Positions 13,777 to 22,871 of a stretch of 64,000 nucleotides of DNA are shown in pieces (the first letter of the stretch is position 1; each line of letters opens with the position of its first letter). The notes below the pieces were generated by a model. That model worked only from the letters and a program-made list of their open reading frames with translations, was not told the origin of the DNA and searched no databases. Position numbers and translations under genes: made by a program. The DNA is taken from the NCBI GenBank assembly GCA_028819575.1, contig JAPPLB010000093.1, forward strand, positions 1 through 64,000, read 5' to 3'. The DNA comes from Bryobacterales bacterium (GTDB lineage Bacteria; Acidobacteriota; Terriglobia; Bryobacterales; UBA6623).

Positions 13777-13792
13777 TTTAGGGCTGTCTAAA
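13777..13792 (+). promoter_or_regulatory. DtxR/MntR-like operator
   Basis: TTTAGGGCTGTCTAAA is an imperfect palindrome with half-sites TTTAGG and TCTAAA. It closely resembles the TTTAGGTTTACCTAAA-type boxes bound by DtxR/MntR/TroR regulators, with one mismatch in the half-sites. It overlaps the predicted transcription start of the promoter at 13744-13773 and lies 13 bases before the DtxR-type regulator gene. It would allow metal-dependent autorepression of the whole feo operon. Binding is inference. Confidence 0.6.
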
Positions 13793-13805: not shown

Positions 13806-14495
13806 ATGCCTTCAGAAGCCGTCGACAACTACCTCAAGGCGATCTACGAGATCGCGGGCGACGACGGGCGCGCTTCAACAGCATCGCTGGCGCGCAAGCT
13901 GAGCGTGGCCCCGGCGTCCGTCACGGGCATGCTCCAGAAGCTCGCCGTGCGTAATCCCGCGCCCGTGGAGTACGAGAAGCACCACGGGGCACGGCTGAGC
14001 GATCACGGCAAACAGCGAGCACTGGAGGTCATTCGCCATCACCGGCTGATCGAGCTGTTCCTCCATCGCATGCTCGGCTATAGCTGGGACGAAGTGCATG
14101 ACGAAGCCGAACGACTGGAGCACGCCATCTCCGAGCAACTCGAGGACCGCATCGCCGAACGGCTCGGCGACCCCGAAGTCGATCCCCACGGGCATCCGAT
14201 TCCGCGCAAAGACGGCACAATCCCGCCAAGGCGCGACCTGAGCCTGCTGGATCTTTTCGTCGGCGCGAAGACGATGGTCTCGAGGGTATCGGACAATGAC
14301 CCGGAGATTCTGCGCTATCTCTCCGAACTCGGCATTACACCAGGAACGACGCTGCACCTTACGGAAAGAGCGCCGTTTGACGGACCACTGATGCTGGAAG
14401 TCGGCCCGGACAAAGAGAAACATGCATTGGGGCCCCGTGTCGCCGGCGAGATTCGCGTCGTGCCGCCCGCAGCGAACGGAGAAACGACGGGCTGA
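13806..14495 (+). CDS. DtxR/MntR-family metal-dependent repressor
   Basis: 229 residues. The N-terminal winged helix is EAVDNYLKAIYEIAGDDG, then ASTASLARKLSVAPASVTGM, with the metal-ligand Asp near residue 7. The dimerisation/metal domain follows: VIRHHRLIELFLHRMLGYSW and DEVHDEAERLEHAIS, keeping the usual His, Glu and ExxEH ligands. The C-terminal part (about 150-220) is an SH3-like/FeoA-type domain. It is the first gene of a four-gene operon encoding Feo iron transport, and a DtxR-like box lies directly upstream. It therefore probably senses Fe2+ (or Mn2+) and represses this operon. The choice of metal is not decided by sequence. Confidence 0.92.
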   Translation: MPSEAVDNYLKAIYEIAGDDGRASTASLARKLSVAPASVTGMLQKLAVRNPAPVEYEKHHGARLSDHGKQRALEVIRHHRLIELFLHRMLGYSWDEVHDEAERLEHAISEQLEDRIAERLGDPEVDPHGHPIPRKDGTIPPRRDLSLLDLFVGAKTMVSRVSDNDPEILRYLSELGITPGTTLHLTERAPFDGPLMLEVGPDKEKHALGPRVAGEIRVVPPAANGETTG

Positions 14496-14500
14496 CGGCG

Positions 14501-15553
14501 ATGACCGACTCAATCTCGGTATGGCTGCTGTCACTTCTGCTCCTCGCTCTCGCAGCGGCTTGGCCCAACGTGGGTTTGTGGGCTCAATGGAAGCGAAGCC
14601 TCGCGCAGCGGGACCGGCGGTTGTTCGAGGATGCACTCAAACACTTCATCACTTGGGAACACCGCAGCCAGGCCGCCACGCCAGAATCCCTTGCCGGTGC
14701 GCTGGCCCTCTCACAGCGGCGCACGCTCGATCTGATCGTGCGCATGGAGACACGCGGGCTTGTGCGCAGTGACACCGGCGCATTGACCCTCACGCCCGAG
14801 GGCGAACGCTGGGCACTGCATGTCGTGCGTGCGCATCGACTCTGGGAGACCTACCTGTCCGATGACGCGGGCATGCCGATGGAAAGAGTGCACCGGGCGG
14901 CCGAGATCGCCGAGCATCAACTGTCGGCGGAGAACCTTGACCAGTTGGATGCGCACCTGGGCCATCCCGAGAGCGACCCGCACGGCGATCCGATCCCTAC
15001 CGTCGAGGGCGCCGTCAAGCCGCTGGACGCAGTGGCCCTCACAGAATGGCCGCAGGGCGAACCGGCCCGCGTCGTTCACATTGAGGACGAGCCGGATGTC
15101 ATCTTCCGCCAAATCGTCGCAGCCGGTCTGCGTCCGGGTTCGACGATCCGCATTCTGGAAAACTCGCCGCAGAGGCTTGTCGTCAGCGACGGCAGCGCCG
15201 AACACCGCTTGGCGCATGTCGTCGCCGCCAACATTCAGGTCGCCGAGGCTCAGCGCGCAACAAGACCGACAGGCACACGGCGATTGTCGGAACTGCGAGC
15301 GGGCGAGGCCGCCGAGGTCTTCGAGCTTGACGTTTCATGCCGTGGATTCAGCCGCCGCCGTCTGCTTGATCTCGGTATGACACCCCAAGCCCGTGTCGAA
15401 GTCGCACTGGACAATCCCTTCGGCGATCCACGCGGTTTTCGCGTGCGCGGCACGACCATAGCGCTCCGCAAACAGCAAGCCGACAAAGTCTGGATCAAGA
15501 CACAGAAGGTTTCCCATGACCCAGAGAGCGCAGCCGAGGTGACTCACGCATGA
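14501..15553 (+). CDS. Membrane-anchored DtxR-like/FeoA fusion protein
   Basis: 350 residues with unusual architecture. One N-terminal transmembrane helix (about residues 6-26) is followed by a DtxR-like winged helix, FITWEHRSQAATPESLAGAL and LIVRMETRGLVRSDTG. A DtxR dimerisation part keeps ligand-like residues (VVRAHRLWETYL, AAEIAEHQLS). A first SH3-like domain (about 180-250) and a canonical FeoA domain (about 265-340, SELRAGEAAEVFELD, RRRLLDLGMTPQARVEV) complete it. The operon has no free-standing feoA, so the C-terminus probably supplies FeoA to the FeoB proteins. The N-terminal part may sense iron at the membrane rather than bind DNA. It starts 5 bases after the repressor gene and overlaps the next gene by 4 bases (ATGA). 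Confidence 0.88.
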   Translation: MTDSISVWLLSLLLLALAAAWPNVGLWAQWKRSLAQRDRRLFEDALKHFITWEHRSQAATPESLAGALALSQRRTLDLIVRMETRGLVRSDTGALTLTPEGERWALHVVRAHRLWETYLSDDAGMPMERVHRAAEIAEHQLSAENLDQLDAHLGHPESDPHGDPIPTVEGAVKPLDAVALTEWPQGEPARVVHIEDEPDVIFRQIVAAGLRPGSTIRILENSPQRLVVSDGSAEHRLAHVVAANIQVAEAQRATRPTGTRRLSELRAGEAAEVFELDVSCRGFSRRRLLDLGMTPQARVEVALDNPFGDPRGFRVRGTTIALRKQQADKVWIKTQKVSHDPESAAEVTHA

Positions 15554-16380
15554 CACCCACAGCCGCGGCGTACTCGAATTGCGAAACCTGTCCCGCGCAC
15601 GCCCAGCTCGCGCAGATGGGCGTTTCGCTCGGAAAATTCGACTACTTGGTCGCCCTTGCCGGGAATCCGAACACCGGCAAGTCATCGGTTTTTAACGCGC
15701 TCACCGGCCTGCGGCAGCACGTCGGCAATTGGACCGGCAAGACCGTCATGCGCGCCGAAGGCGGCTACGCCTTCCAAACCCTTCGATACAAGCTCGTCGA
15801 CCTCCCGGGGACATATTCGCTGCTCTCGGCTTCCGAGGACGAGGAGATCAGCCGCAACTTCCTCCTCTTCGGGAGACCCGACTGCACCGTTGTCGTCGTA
15901 GACGCTACGGCGCTTGAGAGAAATCTGAATCTCGCTCTTCAGGTGATGGAAATCACCGATCGAGTCGTCGTCTGTGTCAACTTGATGGACGAGGCACGGC
16001 GCAAAGGCATCGAGGTCGACGTCCGAAGCCTCTCTCGTGATCTCGGCGTGCCCGCCGTACCTACTGTCGCGCGTACGAAGGAAGGCCTGCACGAGTTGGT
16101 GCAGACCATCGCCGACCTGATTTCCGGCGCCGTCATCTCGAAGCCGGTCCATCCGAGTCACCCACCGGAACTCGAAAGCGCTGTCGATGAACTGGTCCCG
16201 CTGATTGAACAGTCCGCGCCCGGCCTCCCAAACGCCCGCTGGGTTGCGCTGCGACTGCTCGATGGCGACCACAAAGTCCGGCAGGCGCTGTTGTCGGGCG
16301 AGTTGGCCGATCTCGAATCCCAGCAATCCGCCCCTATGGAAGAGATCAGCAGCGTAGTCGCCCTCCAAGGACGCCAATGA
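15550..16380 (+). CDS. feoB: FeoB N-terminal GTPase protein (split FeoB)
   Basis: 276 residues containing only the cytoplasmic part of the ferrous iron transporter. G-protein motifs are present: GNPNTGKSS (G1), VGNWTGKTV (G2), DLPGTYSLLS (G3), and NLMDEA (G4), followed by part of the helical GDP-dissociation-inhibitor-like region. The N-terminus has a Cys pair, NCETCPAH, before the G domain. The frame ends cleanly and overlaps the next gene by ATGA. The membrane part of FeoB is encoded by that gene, so FeoB is made as two polypeptides. A sequencing frameshift is unlikely because both frames have proper start/stop coupling. Confidence 0.92.
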   Translation: MTPTAAAYSNCETCPAHAQLAQMGVSLGKFDYLVALAGNPNTGKSSVFNALTGLRQHVGNWTGKTVMRAEGGYAFQTLRYKLVDLPGTYSLLSASEDEEISRNFLLFGRPDCTVVVVDATALERNLNLALQVMEITDRVVVCVNLMDEARRKGIEVDVRSLSRDLGVPAVPTVARTKEGLHELVQTIADLISGAVISKPVHPSHPPELESAVDELVPLIEQSAPGLPNARWVALRLLDGDHKVRQALLSGELADLESQQSAPMEEISSVVALQGRQ

Positions 16381-17771
16381 CAGCAAAGGTCGCCGATCCT
16401 AAGACCGTCCTGCTTCGCGCGGACCACTTGCGCCGCCAGATCGGCGATGACTTCCGTGACCGCATCGTCTCATCCCTCTACGCCGACGCTCGGCGGATCG
16501 CCGATCGGTCGGTCCGCGTCGGCGCGGAGCAGAAATGGGATTGGGATCAGAAAGTCGACCGCATCGTCACCTCTCCGGTGCTCGGGCTGCCCATCATGCT
16601 CGGCATCCTGGCGCTCGTTTTCTGGATCACGATCGTCGGTGCGAACTATCCGTCACAGATGCTGGCTGAGTTCTTCTTCGTGGTGGAGAGCACGGCTGTT
16701 GCTCTCTTCACCGACTGGGGCGTGCCCGCCTGGATAACGGGTTTTATCTGGAACGGCGTTTTTCGCGGCCTCTCGTGGGTAGTGAGCGTGATGCTGCCGC
16801 CGATGGCGATCTTCTTCCCGCTGTTCACCATTCTGGAGGACCTCGGCTATCTACCACGCGTAGCCTTCAACCTGGACTGGCTCTTTCGCAAATCGGGCGC
16901 CCATGGCAAGCAGGCGCTGACAATGGCGATGGGCTTCGGCTGCAACGCCGCAGGCGTCACCGCAACGCGCGTGATCGATTCGCCGCGCGAGCGGCTGATC
17001 GCTATCCTGACGAACAACTTTGTTCCCTGCAACGGCCGCTTCCCGACGTTGATCATGCTCGCGACGATCTTCGTGGCGGCTGCGTTCCCGCCGGCGTTCG
17101 CATCGTTCGCTGCGGCTGGAGCGGTTGTCGGGGTGGTCCTGATCGGAGTCGGCTTCACGCTGCTCGCTTCCTGGCTACTCGCACGGACCGTACTGCAAGG
17201 CGAAGCCTCGGCATTCACCTTGGAACTGCCTCCTTACCGCCGTCCGAGTATCCTGCGTATTCTCTATACGTCGCTGATTGACCGCACTATCTTCGTGCTC
17301 TGGCGAGCGATCATGACCGCTGCCCCGGCGGGCGCCGTGATCTGGATACTGGCCAACATCAATATAGCCGGAGTCAGCCTGGCTCAGCGTTCAGCCGATT
17401 TTCTCGATTTGCTCGGTTTTGCCATCGGTCTCGACGGCGTAATCCTGCTGGCATACGTTATCGCCATTCCGGCTAACGAAATCGTCGTCCCGACGATGCT
17501 GATGATCTACATGGGTGTCGGCATGATGTCGGACGTCACATCGTACGGCGAGATCCGCACGCTGCTGGTCGAGCAGCAGGGTTGGACCATGCTGACTGCG
17601 ATCAACCTGATGCTCTTCTCGCTCCTCCACAACCCCTGCGCGACCACGATCATCACCATCTGGAAAGAGACCCGTAGCGCCAGGTGGACCACCATCGGCG
17701 CCCTGATGCCGCTGGCCTTCGCCTTCGCCGTCACCTTCGCGGTGGCAACCCTTTGGCGCATCTTCGCCTGA
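16377..17771 (+). CDS. feoB: FeoB membrane-channel protein (split FeoB, C-terminal part)
   Basis: 464 residues. It begins with the FeoB linker, IVSSLYADARRIADRSV, then a polytopic membrane domain with two nucleoside-recognition/Gate units. The first Gate shows YLPRVAFNLDWLFRKSG and MGFGCNAAGVTATRVIDSPR. The motif VPCNGRFPTL is typical of one FeoB subgroup and contains the conserved Cys. The G domain is absent and is encoded by the overlapping upstream gene. Together the two should form the Fe2+ transporter of the inner membrane, controlled by the DtxR-type regulator at the head of the operon. It is the last gene of the operon; no clear terminator follows. Confidence 0.93.
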   Translation: MTAKVADPKTVLLRADHLRRQIGDDFRDRIVSSLYADARRIADRSVRVGAEQKWDWDQKVDRIVTSPVLGLPIMLGILALVFWITIVGANYPSQMLAEFFFVVESTAVALFTDWGVPAWITGFIWNGVFRGLSWVVSVMLPPMAIFFPLFTILEDLGYLPRVAFNLDWLFRKSGAHGKQALTMAMGFGCNAAGVTATRVIDSPRERLIAILTNNFVPCNGRFPTLIMLATIFVAAAFPPAFASFAAAGAVVGVVLIGVGFTLLASWLLARTVLQGEASAFTLELPPYRRPSILRILYTSLIDRTIFVLWRAIMTAAPAGAVIWILANINIAGVSLAQRSADFLDLLGFAIGLDGVILLAYVIAIPANEIVVPTMLMIYMGVGMMSDVTSYGEIRTLLVEQQGWTMLTAINLMLFSLLHNPCATTIITIWKETRSARWTTIGALMPLAFAFAVTFAVATLWRIFA

Positions 17772-17899: not shown

Positions 17900-19075
17900 A
17901 TGCCCCCCTCTAACAAAACCCGTCGTGACCTGCTCGGTACCCTGATCATCGCCGGCGCAGGCGCCACAGCGCTGCGCCCCCGCGCCGCCGCTGCCAAAGC
18001 CAAAGTCGACGACAAAAAGATCATCAGCATGCGGCCGCATCTCTACCACGGCTGGCCGACGCTGGCGCGGCGTGAGGACGGCGAGTTGCTCGTTGTGTGT
18101 TCCGGAGGCCGGGAAGCGCACGTCTGTCCCTTTGGCTGGGTCGAGATCATGCGCTCGAAAGACGACGGACAGACCTGGGGCTGGCCGCGCGTGCTGATGG
18201 ACACGGCGATCGACGACCGCGACGCCGGCGTGTGCGAAACGCCGCAAGGGTCGCTGCTCGTCACGACGTTCACCTCGCTCGCCTACATCGACTATTTCAA
18301 GGAGGCCAAGCCGGGCGCCAGTGGCCGCTTCACCGACTGGACCGAGAAGAAAATGGCCGCTTGGCAGGCGGCTCACGCCCGTACTTCCGCCGCCGCGCGG
18401 GAGCGTATGCTGGGCACTTGGATGCTGCGGTCGAGCGATGGCGGCGTAACTTGGTCCGCGCCGTACCGCGTGCCGGTGAACAGTCCGCACGGCCCGATCC
18501 CGCTGTCCGACGGGCGTGTGATCTACGCCGGCAAGCGCCTCTGGCATGAGAAGAAGCGCATCGGCGTCGCCGAGTCGCACGATGACGGAAAGACTTGGCG
18601 CTGGCTCGCCGAGATCCCGACGCGTGACGGCGATGACTTCACCGAGTACCACGAGCTTCACATCGGCGAGGCGGCCAACGGACACCTGATCGCGCAGATC
18701 CGTAACCACAACAAAAAGAACGAACGCGAGACGCTGCAAACCGAATCCGACGACGGCGGCCGGACCTGGTCCACTCCGCACTCCATTGGCGTGTGGGGAC
18801 TGCCATCACACCTGCTGAGTCTCCGCGACGGGCGCATGCTCATGACGTACGGCTACCGCCGCGAGCCCTTCGGCAACCAAGTGCGCCTGAGCAAGGACAA
18901 CGGCCGAACCTGGTCTGAGCCCATGACCATCTCCGACGACGGAGACGCCGGCGATCTCGGATACCCGTCAACCATCGAGCTGGACGACGGCTCTCTTGTC
19001 ACCGTCTGGTACGAGCGCCTGAAAAGCTCACCATACGCCGTCCTGCGGCAGGCTAACTGGCGTTTGCCGGCGTAA
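17900..19075 (+). CDS. Tat-exported sialidase-like BNR/Asp-box protein
   Basis: 391 residues. A Tat leader (TRRDLLGTLIIAGAGATAL) comes first, then a six-bladed-propeller sequence with five Asp boxes: SKDDGQTWGWP, SSDGGVTWSAP, SHDDGKTWRWL, SDDGGRTWSTP and SKDNGRTWSEP. This is the pattern of exo-alpha-sialidase/BNR-repeat proteins. The arginine triad and nucleophilic Tyr of true sialidases cannot be assigned confidently, so it could act on another sugar or only bind glycans. It stands alone after the iron operon. Export to the periplasm is expected. Confidence 0.85.
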   Translation: MPPSNKTRRDLLGTLIIAGAGATALRPRAAAAKAKVDDKKIISMRPHLYHGWPTLARREDGELLVVCSGGREAHVCPFGWVEIMRSKDDGQTWGWPRVLMDTAIDDRDAGVCETPQGSLLVTTFTSLAYIDYFKEAKPGASGRFTDWTEKKMAAWQAAHARTSAAARERMLGTWMLRSSDGGVTWSAPYRVPVNSPHGPIPLSDGRVIYAGKRLWHEKKRIGVAESHDDGKTWRWLAEIPTRDGDDFTEYHELHIGEAANGHLIAQIRNHNKKNERETLQTESDDGGRTWSTPHSIGVWGLPSHLLSLRDGRMLMTYGYRREPFGNQVRLSKDNGRTWSEPMTISDDGDAGDLGYPSTIELDDGSLVTVWYERLKSSPYAVLRQANWRLPA

Positions 19076-20432: not shown

Positions 20433-20606
20433 CTTTGGCTCAGCCGCGAGGAAAGTCCAAGCGACCGGTGCTTCAGTCGATTATAGCGAATGCCCTCCGG
20501 ACTCCCCTACGGCTGAATGAATGGGCGTGGCCTTTCGGCCGCGTGGGATTGTTCAACAAAAAACCTGTGGCGGCTCGTCTACCACAGACAGATGACGGAG
20601 GGTGTG

Positions 20607-22871
20607 ATGAAGAAGGTTTCTTGTATCTGCGGGGTGCTGCTTCTCCTGGCTTTGCAGGCACTCCCGATGTGGTCCGCGCCGACGGAAAGCCAAGTGATCG
20701 CGGGCCGAGTCGTCGACGAGACCGGCGGCGCGCTCGCAGGCGCTAATGTTTTTATCAGGGATCTCAAGACCGGGCTGGAATTTTCGACCGTCGCCAACGG
20801 CGAGGGCGCTTTTGAGGTCGCGGTTCGTCCCGGGAAGTACCGTGTCACGGCAACCCGTGCCGAGTTTGCCCATCAAACACAGATCGTAGAGGTGCCATCG
20901 CCGGAGGCGCAGAATCTGCTGGCAACACTCACACCAGCGCCGCTGGCGCAACAGGTCGTCGTCAGTGGTTCACGGGAGGAGGAACTCATCGAGAACTCGG
21001 TGGCGAAAGTGGATGTCGTTTCCAGCACGATGATCAAAGACTCGGGTTATGAGCGTGTCAGCGACCTGCTGTCCGAAGAGCCCGGAGTGGTCGTTCGAAG
21101 CGGTTCTTCCGGGAATCGCTCGGAAACGCAGATTCAGGGTATCGACTCCCGCCAATCGCTTGTGCTGATCGACGGTTATCCCATCGTCGGGGCGAGGGGA
21201 ATCAAGCGTGGCATCCTCAACATGGACCGGCAGTCGGCGGGCCGGCTGGAGCGCATCGAAGTGGTCAAGGGCGCGTCATCGGCACTCTACGGTTCCGAGG
21301 CGATCGGCGGCGTAATCAACTTGATCACACGCGAAGCGAAACGAAAGTTTGACGGCAACGTCACGACTTCGGCGAGCAGTTTCAGCGGAGTGGATCTGCG
21401 CGGGGATGTGGGCATTCGGCACCAAGGCTGGCATGGCTTCTTCGACGTCGAGCGCCACAAGCGCAATCCCTATCGCCTGATTCCCGACAGTTTCGATACG
21501 ACGGCAGCGGGCTTCCACCGATACGACTACTTCGGCAAGATGGGCTACGACTTCTCGGAGAGGCTCAAGGTGGGATTGATGGCGAATGCCTTCGACAATG
21601 ACGAGCTCGGCAGGTTCTTCGGCGAGTTCGGGCCGCAGACGACCGCGACGAAAGACAGCGCCCAGAACTACGGCCTCAACCTCGACCTGGGACTGACCCC
21701 GGTCACGCAGTGGACCTTCCGCGGCTACTACGGCAAGTACGACGAAAGCTCGAGGATCGCCGTGCTTGCGATGCCCGGACACATCGACACGAACGCGAAC
21801 CTCAATCAGCGACTCTATCGGCTCGAGACGAACATCTCGCACGTCTGGGGTTCGCGACAGCTTGTTCAGGGCGGCTTGGAGTGGAACCAGGACAACTATC
21901 GCGGCTACAACCGCGTGGTCGGTGACAACGCCGGCCAGCAGATCTCCATGGTTGATACCTGGTTCAACGACCGTATCGAGATACACCCGCGCGTCAGCTT
22001 GACCCTGGGAGCCCGTTGGAACGATCACTCGCTGTATGGAGATAACTTCGTGCCGCGTGCGGGCGCCCTGGTGCGGGTTACCGACAACCTGCGCCTGCGG
22101 GGCTCTTGGGGCCGCGGGTTCCGCGCCCCGGATCTGGGGCAGCTCTATTTCCGCTTCCTCAACCCGACCAACTTTTATCAAGTGATCGGGAACCCCAGCC
22201 TAGTTCCGGAGACATCGACGACGAATCAGGTCGGCTTCGACTACCGGCTGGACCGTATCCGCTTCAGCGGCGCGTATTTCCGGAACGACATCAAGAACCT
22301 GATTCAGGCCGACCTGATCGGCAGGCCGAGCACTCCCCAAGCCCTCCGTGGACTACTCAACGCCTTCAACATCGATTCGGCTTTCAATCCAGGATTGCAC
22401 CGGTTGTTTTATCTCTACCGCAACGTGGACAACGTGTACACGACTGGGGTCGAGAGCAAGGTGGAGATGAATCTGACGCGAGGTCTGATCGTCTCTTCCA
22501 GCTACACCTACCTCGACGCCCGTGATAAGGAAACGAAGGCGTTCCTGAGTCAACGGCATCGTCACCACGGCAACTTCCGCGTGTGGTGGTCTACGAGCCG
22601 CTGGGGCGGCCTGCGGACTAACTTCCGGGGCACGTACTTCAGCAAGTGGCCGATTGCGGGGCGCAGCGGCAGCTTCATTGGCGACGCATATCAGGTATGG
22701 GATTGGTACATCGCCAAGCCCGTGGCCGTGGGAAGCGAATTCTACTTTGCGCTAGACAACCTGTTCGATTCGACGGACTCCAATCTCCAGACCGCCGATC
22801 CGTCTTTCTTCCGGGCGGACCCCGGCCGCACATTCCGAGTCGGGATGCGCTGGAACTTTGGTAGGGATTAG
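20607..22871 (+). CDS. TonB-dependent outer-membrane receptor with regulatory-like domain
   Basis: 754 residues from ATG 20607, which has GGAGG 5 bases upstream; MKKVSCICGVLLLLALQALP is a signal peptide. An N-terminal carboxypeptidase-regulatory-like domain follows (IAGRVVDETGGALAGANVFI, about residues 30-110). The plug domain is next: DLLSEEPGVVVRS, SRQSLVLIDGYPIVGARG, and RLERIEVVKGASSALYGSEA with GGVINLITREAK. The 22-strand barrel ends in FRVGMRWNFGRD, with DNLFDST just before. It resembles BtuB/colicin-I/siderophore receptors; the ligand cannot be read. Neighbours (DUF3386 upstream, two tiny ORFs downstream) form a possible uptake cluster. Confidence 0.93.
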   Translation: MKKVSCICGVLLLLALQALPMWSAPTESQVIAGRVVDETGGALAGANVFIRDLKTGLEFSTVANGEGAFEVAVRPGKYRVTATRAEFAHQTQIVEVPSPEAQNLLATLTPAPLAQQVVVSGSREEELIENSVAKVDVVSSTMIKDSGYERVSDLLSEEPGVVVRSGSSGNRSETQIQGIDSRQSLVLIDGYPIVGARGIKRGILNMDRQSAGRLERIEVVKGASSALYGSEAIGGVINLITREAKRKFDGNVTTSASSFSGVDLRGDVGIRHQGWHGFFDVERHKRNPYRLIPDSFDTTAAGFHRYDYFGKMGYDFSERLKVGLMANAFDNDELGRFFGEFGPQTTATKDSAQNYGLNLDLGLTPVTQWTFRGYYGKYDESSRIAVLAMPGHIDTNANLNQRLYRLETNISHVWGSRQLVQGGLEWNQDNYRGYNRVVGDNAGQQISMVDTWFNDRIEIHPRVSLTLGARWNDHSLYGDNFVPRAGALVRVTDNLRLRGSWGRGFRAPDLGQLYFRFLNPTNFYQVIGNPSLVPETSTTNQVGFDYRLDRIRFSGAYFRNDIKNLIQADLIGRPSTPQALRGLLNAFNIDSAFNPGLHRLFYLYRNVDNVYTTGVESKVEMNLTRGLIVSSSYTYLDARDKETKAFLSQRHRHHGNFRVWWSTSRWGGLRTNFRGTYFSKWPIAGRSGSFIGDAYQVWDWYIAKPVAVGSEFYFALDNLFDSTDSNLQTADPSFFRADPGRTFRVGMRWNFGRD

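Follow-up and report, generated by a model that had tools for sequence, protein, structure and literature searches.

A DtxR-FeoA fusion with a predicted membrane anchor: anatomy and evolution fit a repressor turned transporter subunit

Introduction

What does a DtxR-type metal sensor do when it begins with a hydrophobic helix, ends in FeoA domains and is encoded directly before a FeoB transporter? The question is raised by a gene of a Bryobacterales bacterium (assembly GCA_028819575.1, contig JAPPLB010000093.1), of which a stretch of 64,000 nucleotides is here called the window. A first-pass annotation, made from the DNA letters, had proposed that the encoded fusion is an iron sensor that regulates the transporter directly while an upstream repressor handles transcription, and had known of no described system with this layout.

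Results

Organisation of the operon

The genes follow one another in the order repressor, fusion, FeoB-N and FeoB-C (Table 1), and Pfam searches of these reading frames place the fusion between a normal DtxR-type repressor and a split FeoB, as the first-pass annotation had stated. It was also right in naming the fusion as the sole source of FeoA in the operon; outside it, at locus L001, the genome carries another feoA-feoB pair, a canonical one. The genome has two DtxR metal domains in total, both within the feo operon. Further downstream, a BNR-repeat (sialidase-like) protein (17900-19075) and a TonB-dependent receptor with a carboxypeptidase-regulatory domain (20517-22871) are encoded.

The operon FeoB differs from the second FeoB of the genome in several motifs. 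A CxxC motif near the N-terminus of FeoB-N (15580-15591, FeoB-N residues 11-14) is kept in all 76 aligned relatives and was not seen in the second FeoB; it could be a metal or Fe-S cluster site, or a redox responder. In the pore region of FeoB-C the motifs CNAAG (53 of 54 aligned sequences) and CNGR-x-PT (54 of 54) are conserved, and the second FeoB departs from both, a possible hint, at the level of sequence, of another metal preference.

Table 1 Features of the feo operon and of the fusion protein (positions in the window; residues are those of the fusion)
Feature	Position	Strand	Basis or remark
DtxR/MntR-type box TTAGGGCTGTCTAA, putative operon operator	13778..13791	.	15 bp 5' of the repressor start codon
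DtxR/MntR-type repressor with one FeoA/SH3 domain	13806..14495	+	Pfam Fe_dep_repress 1.9e-11, Fe_dep_repr_C 1.7e-30, FeoA 8.6e-16
Fusion ORF	14501..15553	+	350 aa, ATG start; TM, winged helix, metal/dimer domain, FeoA1 (SH3-like), FeoA2
N-terminal helix, residues 2-19, predicted single membrane span	14504..14557	+	AF2 helix; hydrophobicity in orthologues; basic residues after it
Winged-helix region, residues 60-96	14678..14788	+	fold kept, recognition helix sequence not conserved
Metal-binding/dimerisation domain, residues 98-167	14792..15001	+	Pfam Fe_dep_repr_C 4.4e-25; H112, E116, H131, E135, E138, H139, D159, H161
FeoA1, SH3-like, residues about 177-249	15029..15247	+	six-frame FeoA search, 1.1e-8
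H193-x-E-D-E-P198 motif of FeoA1, candidate metal site	15077..15094	+	near-invariance in orthologues
FeoA2, full FeoA domain, residues 261-333	15281..15499	+	Pfam FeoA 2.3e-25, two stretches
FeoB-N, GTPase part of split FeoB	15550..16380	+	Pfam FeoB_N 1.4e-59, FeoB_Cyto 1e-8
FeoB-C, membrane part of split FeoB	16377..17771	+	Pfam Gate 2.6e-25, FeoB_C 1.6e-14

Domain structure and membrane helix of the fusion

Pfam searches and an AF2 model bear out the complete domain set that had been claimed for the fusion, namely a transmembrane helix, a winged helix, a metal/dimer domain, an SH3-like domain and a full FeoA domain. The Pfam model for the N-terminal helix-turn-helix of iron-dependent repressors (Fe_dep_repress) matches the upstream repressor but not the fusion. 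Prediction of the fusion alone, a check that had been proposed for it, yielded a confident model from a 74-row alignment (mean pLDDT 91.4, pTM 0.81) with a helix at residues 2-19, a second helix at 26-54, an intact winged helix, the dimer domain, FeoA1 and FeoA2. Its top Foldseek match in the PDB is the manganese-dependent repressor 5zr6 (TM-score on target 0.86-0.91). By its Pfam metal/dimer domain and by this fold match the fusion belongs to the DtxR/MntR family, and with two C-terminal FeoA domains behind the DtxR core it resembles the PgMntR type within it; unlike the soluble, anchor-free proteins of that type, it has a predicted membrane helix.

Of 126 orthologous sequences, which come from several phyla and include the window and some near-identical species, 124 have a hydrophobic helix in this N-terminal position. 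The two exceptions are L040 and L165, in which no helix is evident in other frames just upstream. Residues P22 and G25, just past the helix, are conserved across phyla. Translation of upstream DNA by chance would leave neither such a helix nor such residues conserved, and the reservation that the hydrophobic segment might be a start-site artefact, with the true start after residue 26, was thus not borne out. Judged by this conservation the membrane anchor is real, and localisation itself is predicted. Since basic residues come after the helix (net charge of residues 22-40 in the orthologues: mean +4.0, minimum +1), the C-terminal domains are predicted to lie on the cytoplasmic side.

Decay of the recognition helix and conservation of the metal site

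A conserved DNA-reading helix is expected of DtxR/MntR transcriptional repressors. We aligned the fusion and the repressor of the same loci (63 loci plus the window), and the mean pairwise identity of the recognition helix was 0.226 for the fusion versus 0.642 for the repressor. For the winged-helix region as a whole the values were 0.285 versus 0.514, for the dimer/metal domain 0.582 versus 0.598 and for FeoA1, which is better conserved in the fusion, 0.470 versus 0.285; Wilcoxon p-values on these identities are indicative only, as columns were taken as independent and the rows share one history. The mean charge of the winged-helix region is -0.3 in the fusion versus +2.8 in the repressor. 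The dimer domain is conserved to the same degree in fusion and paralogue, which rules out generally faster evolution of the fusion. The recognition helix is non-conserved also in fusions that have no adjacent repressor.

The metal-ligand positions of the DtxR/MntR family are present in the fusion and nearly invariant as predicted ligands. H112, E116, H131, E138, H139, E195, D196 and P198 occur in all 126 orthologous sequences, H193 and E197 in 125 and D44 in 120; E135 is found in 94 and replaced by H, Q or D elsewhere, and the 74-row alignment shows no variation at D159 and H161. The H-x-E-D-E-P motif was absent from the repressor paralogue on sequence comparison. The fusion has therefore probably lost DNA binding, to judge from its recognition helix, while its metal-ligand positions stay fixed.

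The predicted primary site (D44, E135, E138 and H139) is an MntR-type set: in the ligand lists of the PgMntR report (PMC4805248), D44 and E135 answer to the MntR-type Asp/Glu and not to the DtxR-type Met/Cys. Mn2+ is for this reason at least as likely a ligand as Fe2+, and iron as the sole metal is unsupported by the predicted set. Of the proposed iron sensor the conserved metal-ligand positions thus stand; 'iron' was too specific.

Linkage to FeoB and to the repressor

A FeoB-N gene lies downstream of the fusion in 110 of 110 fusion loci with enough flanking DNA. An ORF scan placed it within 400 bp in 106 loci and further away in three; in L064, which the scan overlooked, tblastn located it about 50 bp downstream. 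The count covers fusion loci alone, and as these were picked by similarity to the fusion itself and not by synteny, their choice does not by itself create the linkage. The repressor adjoins the fusion in 84 of 107 loci and lies further upstream in four more. With FeoB in all loci and the repressor in about 80%, the fusion is tied to the transporter, and its FeoA domain is encoded together with feoB, as is characteristic of a FeoA partner of FeoB. Most loci, the window among them, have a split FeoB. In four of the scanned loci FeoB is seemingly unsplit, and more such cases were met among loci read by hand; some of these frames reach the edge of the fetched DNA.

Putative operator

For 47 of 75 repressor homologues a box of the TTAG-N-CTAA type was present within 120 bp upstream, compared with 4.2% of shuffled sequences that preserve base content only; the 47 are a lower bound, as the first operator pattern overlooked sites of other spacing or letters, and the 75 are not independent, including same-locus copies (window, L007, L070 and L071; L008 and L072) as well as some homologues not beside a fusion. 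Only four of 19 fusions lacking an adjacent repressor have a box upstream. From these frequencies, the putative operator is seen to track the repressor. The recognition helix of the repressor is conserved. At the sequence level, the earlier proposal is supported in that a separate upstream repressor with its own operator can handle transcription.

Distribution and natural variants

Relatives of the fusion occur in Bryobacterales and other Acidobacteriota, Chloroflexota, Flavobacteriaceae and other Bacteroidota, and further in Chlorobiota, Verrucomicrobiota, Planctomycetota, Myxococcota and Latescibacterota; named carriers are Lutibacter maritimus DSM 24450, Lutimonas and Aureibaculum. The fusion was detected in at least 32 of 297 sampled genomes of the window's phylum, at least 31 of 248 of the Lutibacter maritimus phylum and at least 8 of 201 of the Roseiflexus phylum, as well as in at least 4 of 199 and 2 of 189 genomes of the phyla of a Planctomycetota and a Myxococcales record, respectively, all with strict E-value limits. 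An oddity of a single genome is ruled out by this prevalence.

Two congeneric genomes from the window's family (G016 and G011, with loci L089 and L090) have in the same slot a gene that lacks the DtxR core and encodes the helix, FeoA2 and a degenerate FeoA1 devoid of HxEDEP. Comparison of the two genes gave dN 0.076 and dS 0.331; with dN well under dS the protein is evidently maintained by purifying selection. Both species probably inherited the same loss, and the loci count as one event. We read them as suggesting that FeoA at its anchor provides the essential output, with sensor and HxEDEP forming one module. TM-FeoA-FeoA variants without DtxR core or HxEDEP were seen at L115:1818-2486 and L116:2645-3313, both on the minus strand.

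Discussion

The anatomy and evolution of the fusion fit a repressor turned transporter subunit; metal sensing and an effect on FeoB are what we best infer from the sequences. We assume, with a probability of about 0.5, that the protein is a membrane-anchored metal sensor, an accessory subunit that acts through FeoA on FeoB, probably off DNA. This assumption rests on the retained helix, the decayed recognition helix, the nearly invariant metal positions and the constant presence of FeoB downstream; the box that tracks the repressor, the natural variants L089 and L090, the FeoA of Bacteroides fragilis and the fusions of DtxR domains to ABC transporters discussed below add to it.

A possible mechanism is as follows. 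A DtxR/MntR-type sensor would have been turned into an anchored accessory subunit of a FeoB-type importer. The single N-terminal helix would keep it in the inner membrane with the remainder in the cytoplasm, where the dimer/metal domain and the SH3-like FeoA1 would bind Mn2+ or Fe2+; an operator would probably no longer be read. FeoA2 would serve as the output by touching the FeoB GTPase, with an effect on the GTP state of that domain or on the way it docks to the membrane part. Transport could in this way be adjusted directly by cytosolic metal, and the upstream DtxR repressor would adjust transcription via its own operator; feedback inhibition is our guess for the direction of control. Docking of a detached GTPase can explain only part of this, as FeoB is apparently unsplit at some fusion loci, and the variants L089 and L090 imply that the sensor is dispensable in one lineage. 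In B. fragilis, FeoA is reported (PMC8980893) to stabilise GTP-bound FeoB. There too FeoA is encoded with FeoB, to which it is joined; in the fusion it is joined instead to a DtxR core and a membrane helix. The survey in the same source took DtxR-FeoA proteins out of its data.

Several of these observations would suit an FeoA subunit and scaffold that senses nothing, in which the anchor keeps FeoA at the membrane and the detached GTPase near the permease, and the DtxR part is a dimerisation module or a chaperone that takes metal from the FeoB exit. The linkage to FeoB is universal in the sampled loci, FeoB is mostly split as in the window, and L089 and L090 retain anchor and FeoA2 without the DtxR core. 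Dimerisation alone, however, needs no near-invariant set of metal ligands plus HxEDEP throughout 126 sequences, and FeoB is apparently unsplit at some loci; we consider such a scaffold less likely.

The closest described relative is PgMntR of Porphyromonas gingivalis, which its report (PMC4805248) describes as a soluble DtxR protein with twin FeoA domains, whose operon also encodes the FeoB-type manganese transporter FB2 (FeoB2). It thus shares with the fusion the DtxR core, the two FeoA domains and an operon with a FeoB. Its predicted metal residues (H85, E89, H104, C108, E111, H112, D132, H134, H166, D169 and E170; PMC4805248) correspond in order, by equal spacing of residue numbers alone, to H112, E116, H131, E135, E138, H139, D159, H161, H193, D196 and E197 of the fusion. 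According to the same report, PgMntR begins at its DNA-binding domain (aa 13-65), which leaves no room for an anchor; in the fusion, by contrast, the recognition helix is non-conserved and a separate repressor is usually present. A membrane-anchored DtxR was not found in the literature searched, which misses most subscription papers, so the supposed novelty stands for the anchored form within that literature, and the soluble PgMntR limits it for the remainder of the architecture.

PgMntR binds the promoter of its own operon in vitro and needs FeoA2 to do so (PMC4805248). It agrees with the fusion in its predicted metal residues and in having two FeoA domains, and this analogy weighs against a subunit that acts off DNA, as does the winged-helix fold that the AF2 model of the fusion retains. 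Both would suit a transcription regulator, tethered to the membrane or resembling PgMntR, that has kept its DNA binding and whose FeoA domains are structural. So would a twin-FeoA protein of Prevotella (L167) that has no clear helix and whose gene precedes an unsplit FeoB sharing the CxxC and CNAAG motifs: in the tree it falls inside the fusion clade, on a long branch of unsure position; apart from it, a branch with 100/99 support separates the fusions from the repressors. Yet the recognition helix is non-conserved, the winged-helix region is not basic on average, a dedicated repressor with a box adjoins the fusion in most loci and a box is rare before fusions that have no such neighbour, so that we regard a DNA-binding regulator as improbable. 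Least probable by far is a soluble protein with a misassigned start, to which the missing helix of L040, L165 and the Prevotella relative would point, as the helix, P22 and G25 are conserved across phyla and AF2 gives a confident N-terminal helix.

Like the fusion, the DtxR/MntR repressors (5zr6, DR2539, IdeR and ScaR) have a winged helix, a dimer domain, an SH3-like fold and the metal-ligand positions; the fusion differs by the membrane helix, the second full FeoA domain and the decayed recognition helix. DtxR metal/dimer domains are attached to transport parts elsewhere as well. A protein from the phylum of Lutibacter maritimus (L169:1807-3288) combines an ABC-3 metal permease with a DtxR metal/dimer domain and an FeoA domain, and two ABC ATPases from the window's order (L109:1173-2288 and L114:1215-2378) carry a C-terminal DtxR metal/dimer domain, the tested ATPase fusions giving no FeoA match. 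These proteins differ from the fusion in belonging to other transporters, without FeoB.

We tentatively suggest that the sensing core of a repressor was recruited as an anchored, metal-gated subunit that controls FeoB after translation, with transcription left to the paralogue. If this is true, the same step would have been taken in parallel where DtxR domains are joined to an ABC-3 permease or to ABC ATPases, and some of the proteins now called metal-dependent transcriptional regulators would in fact be subunits of transporters. The operon offers a testable case for the adjustment of FeoB once it is in the membrane and for the role of FeoA.
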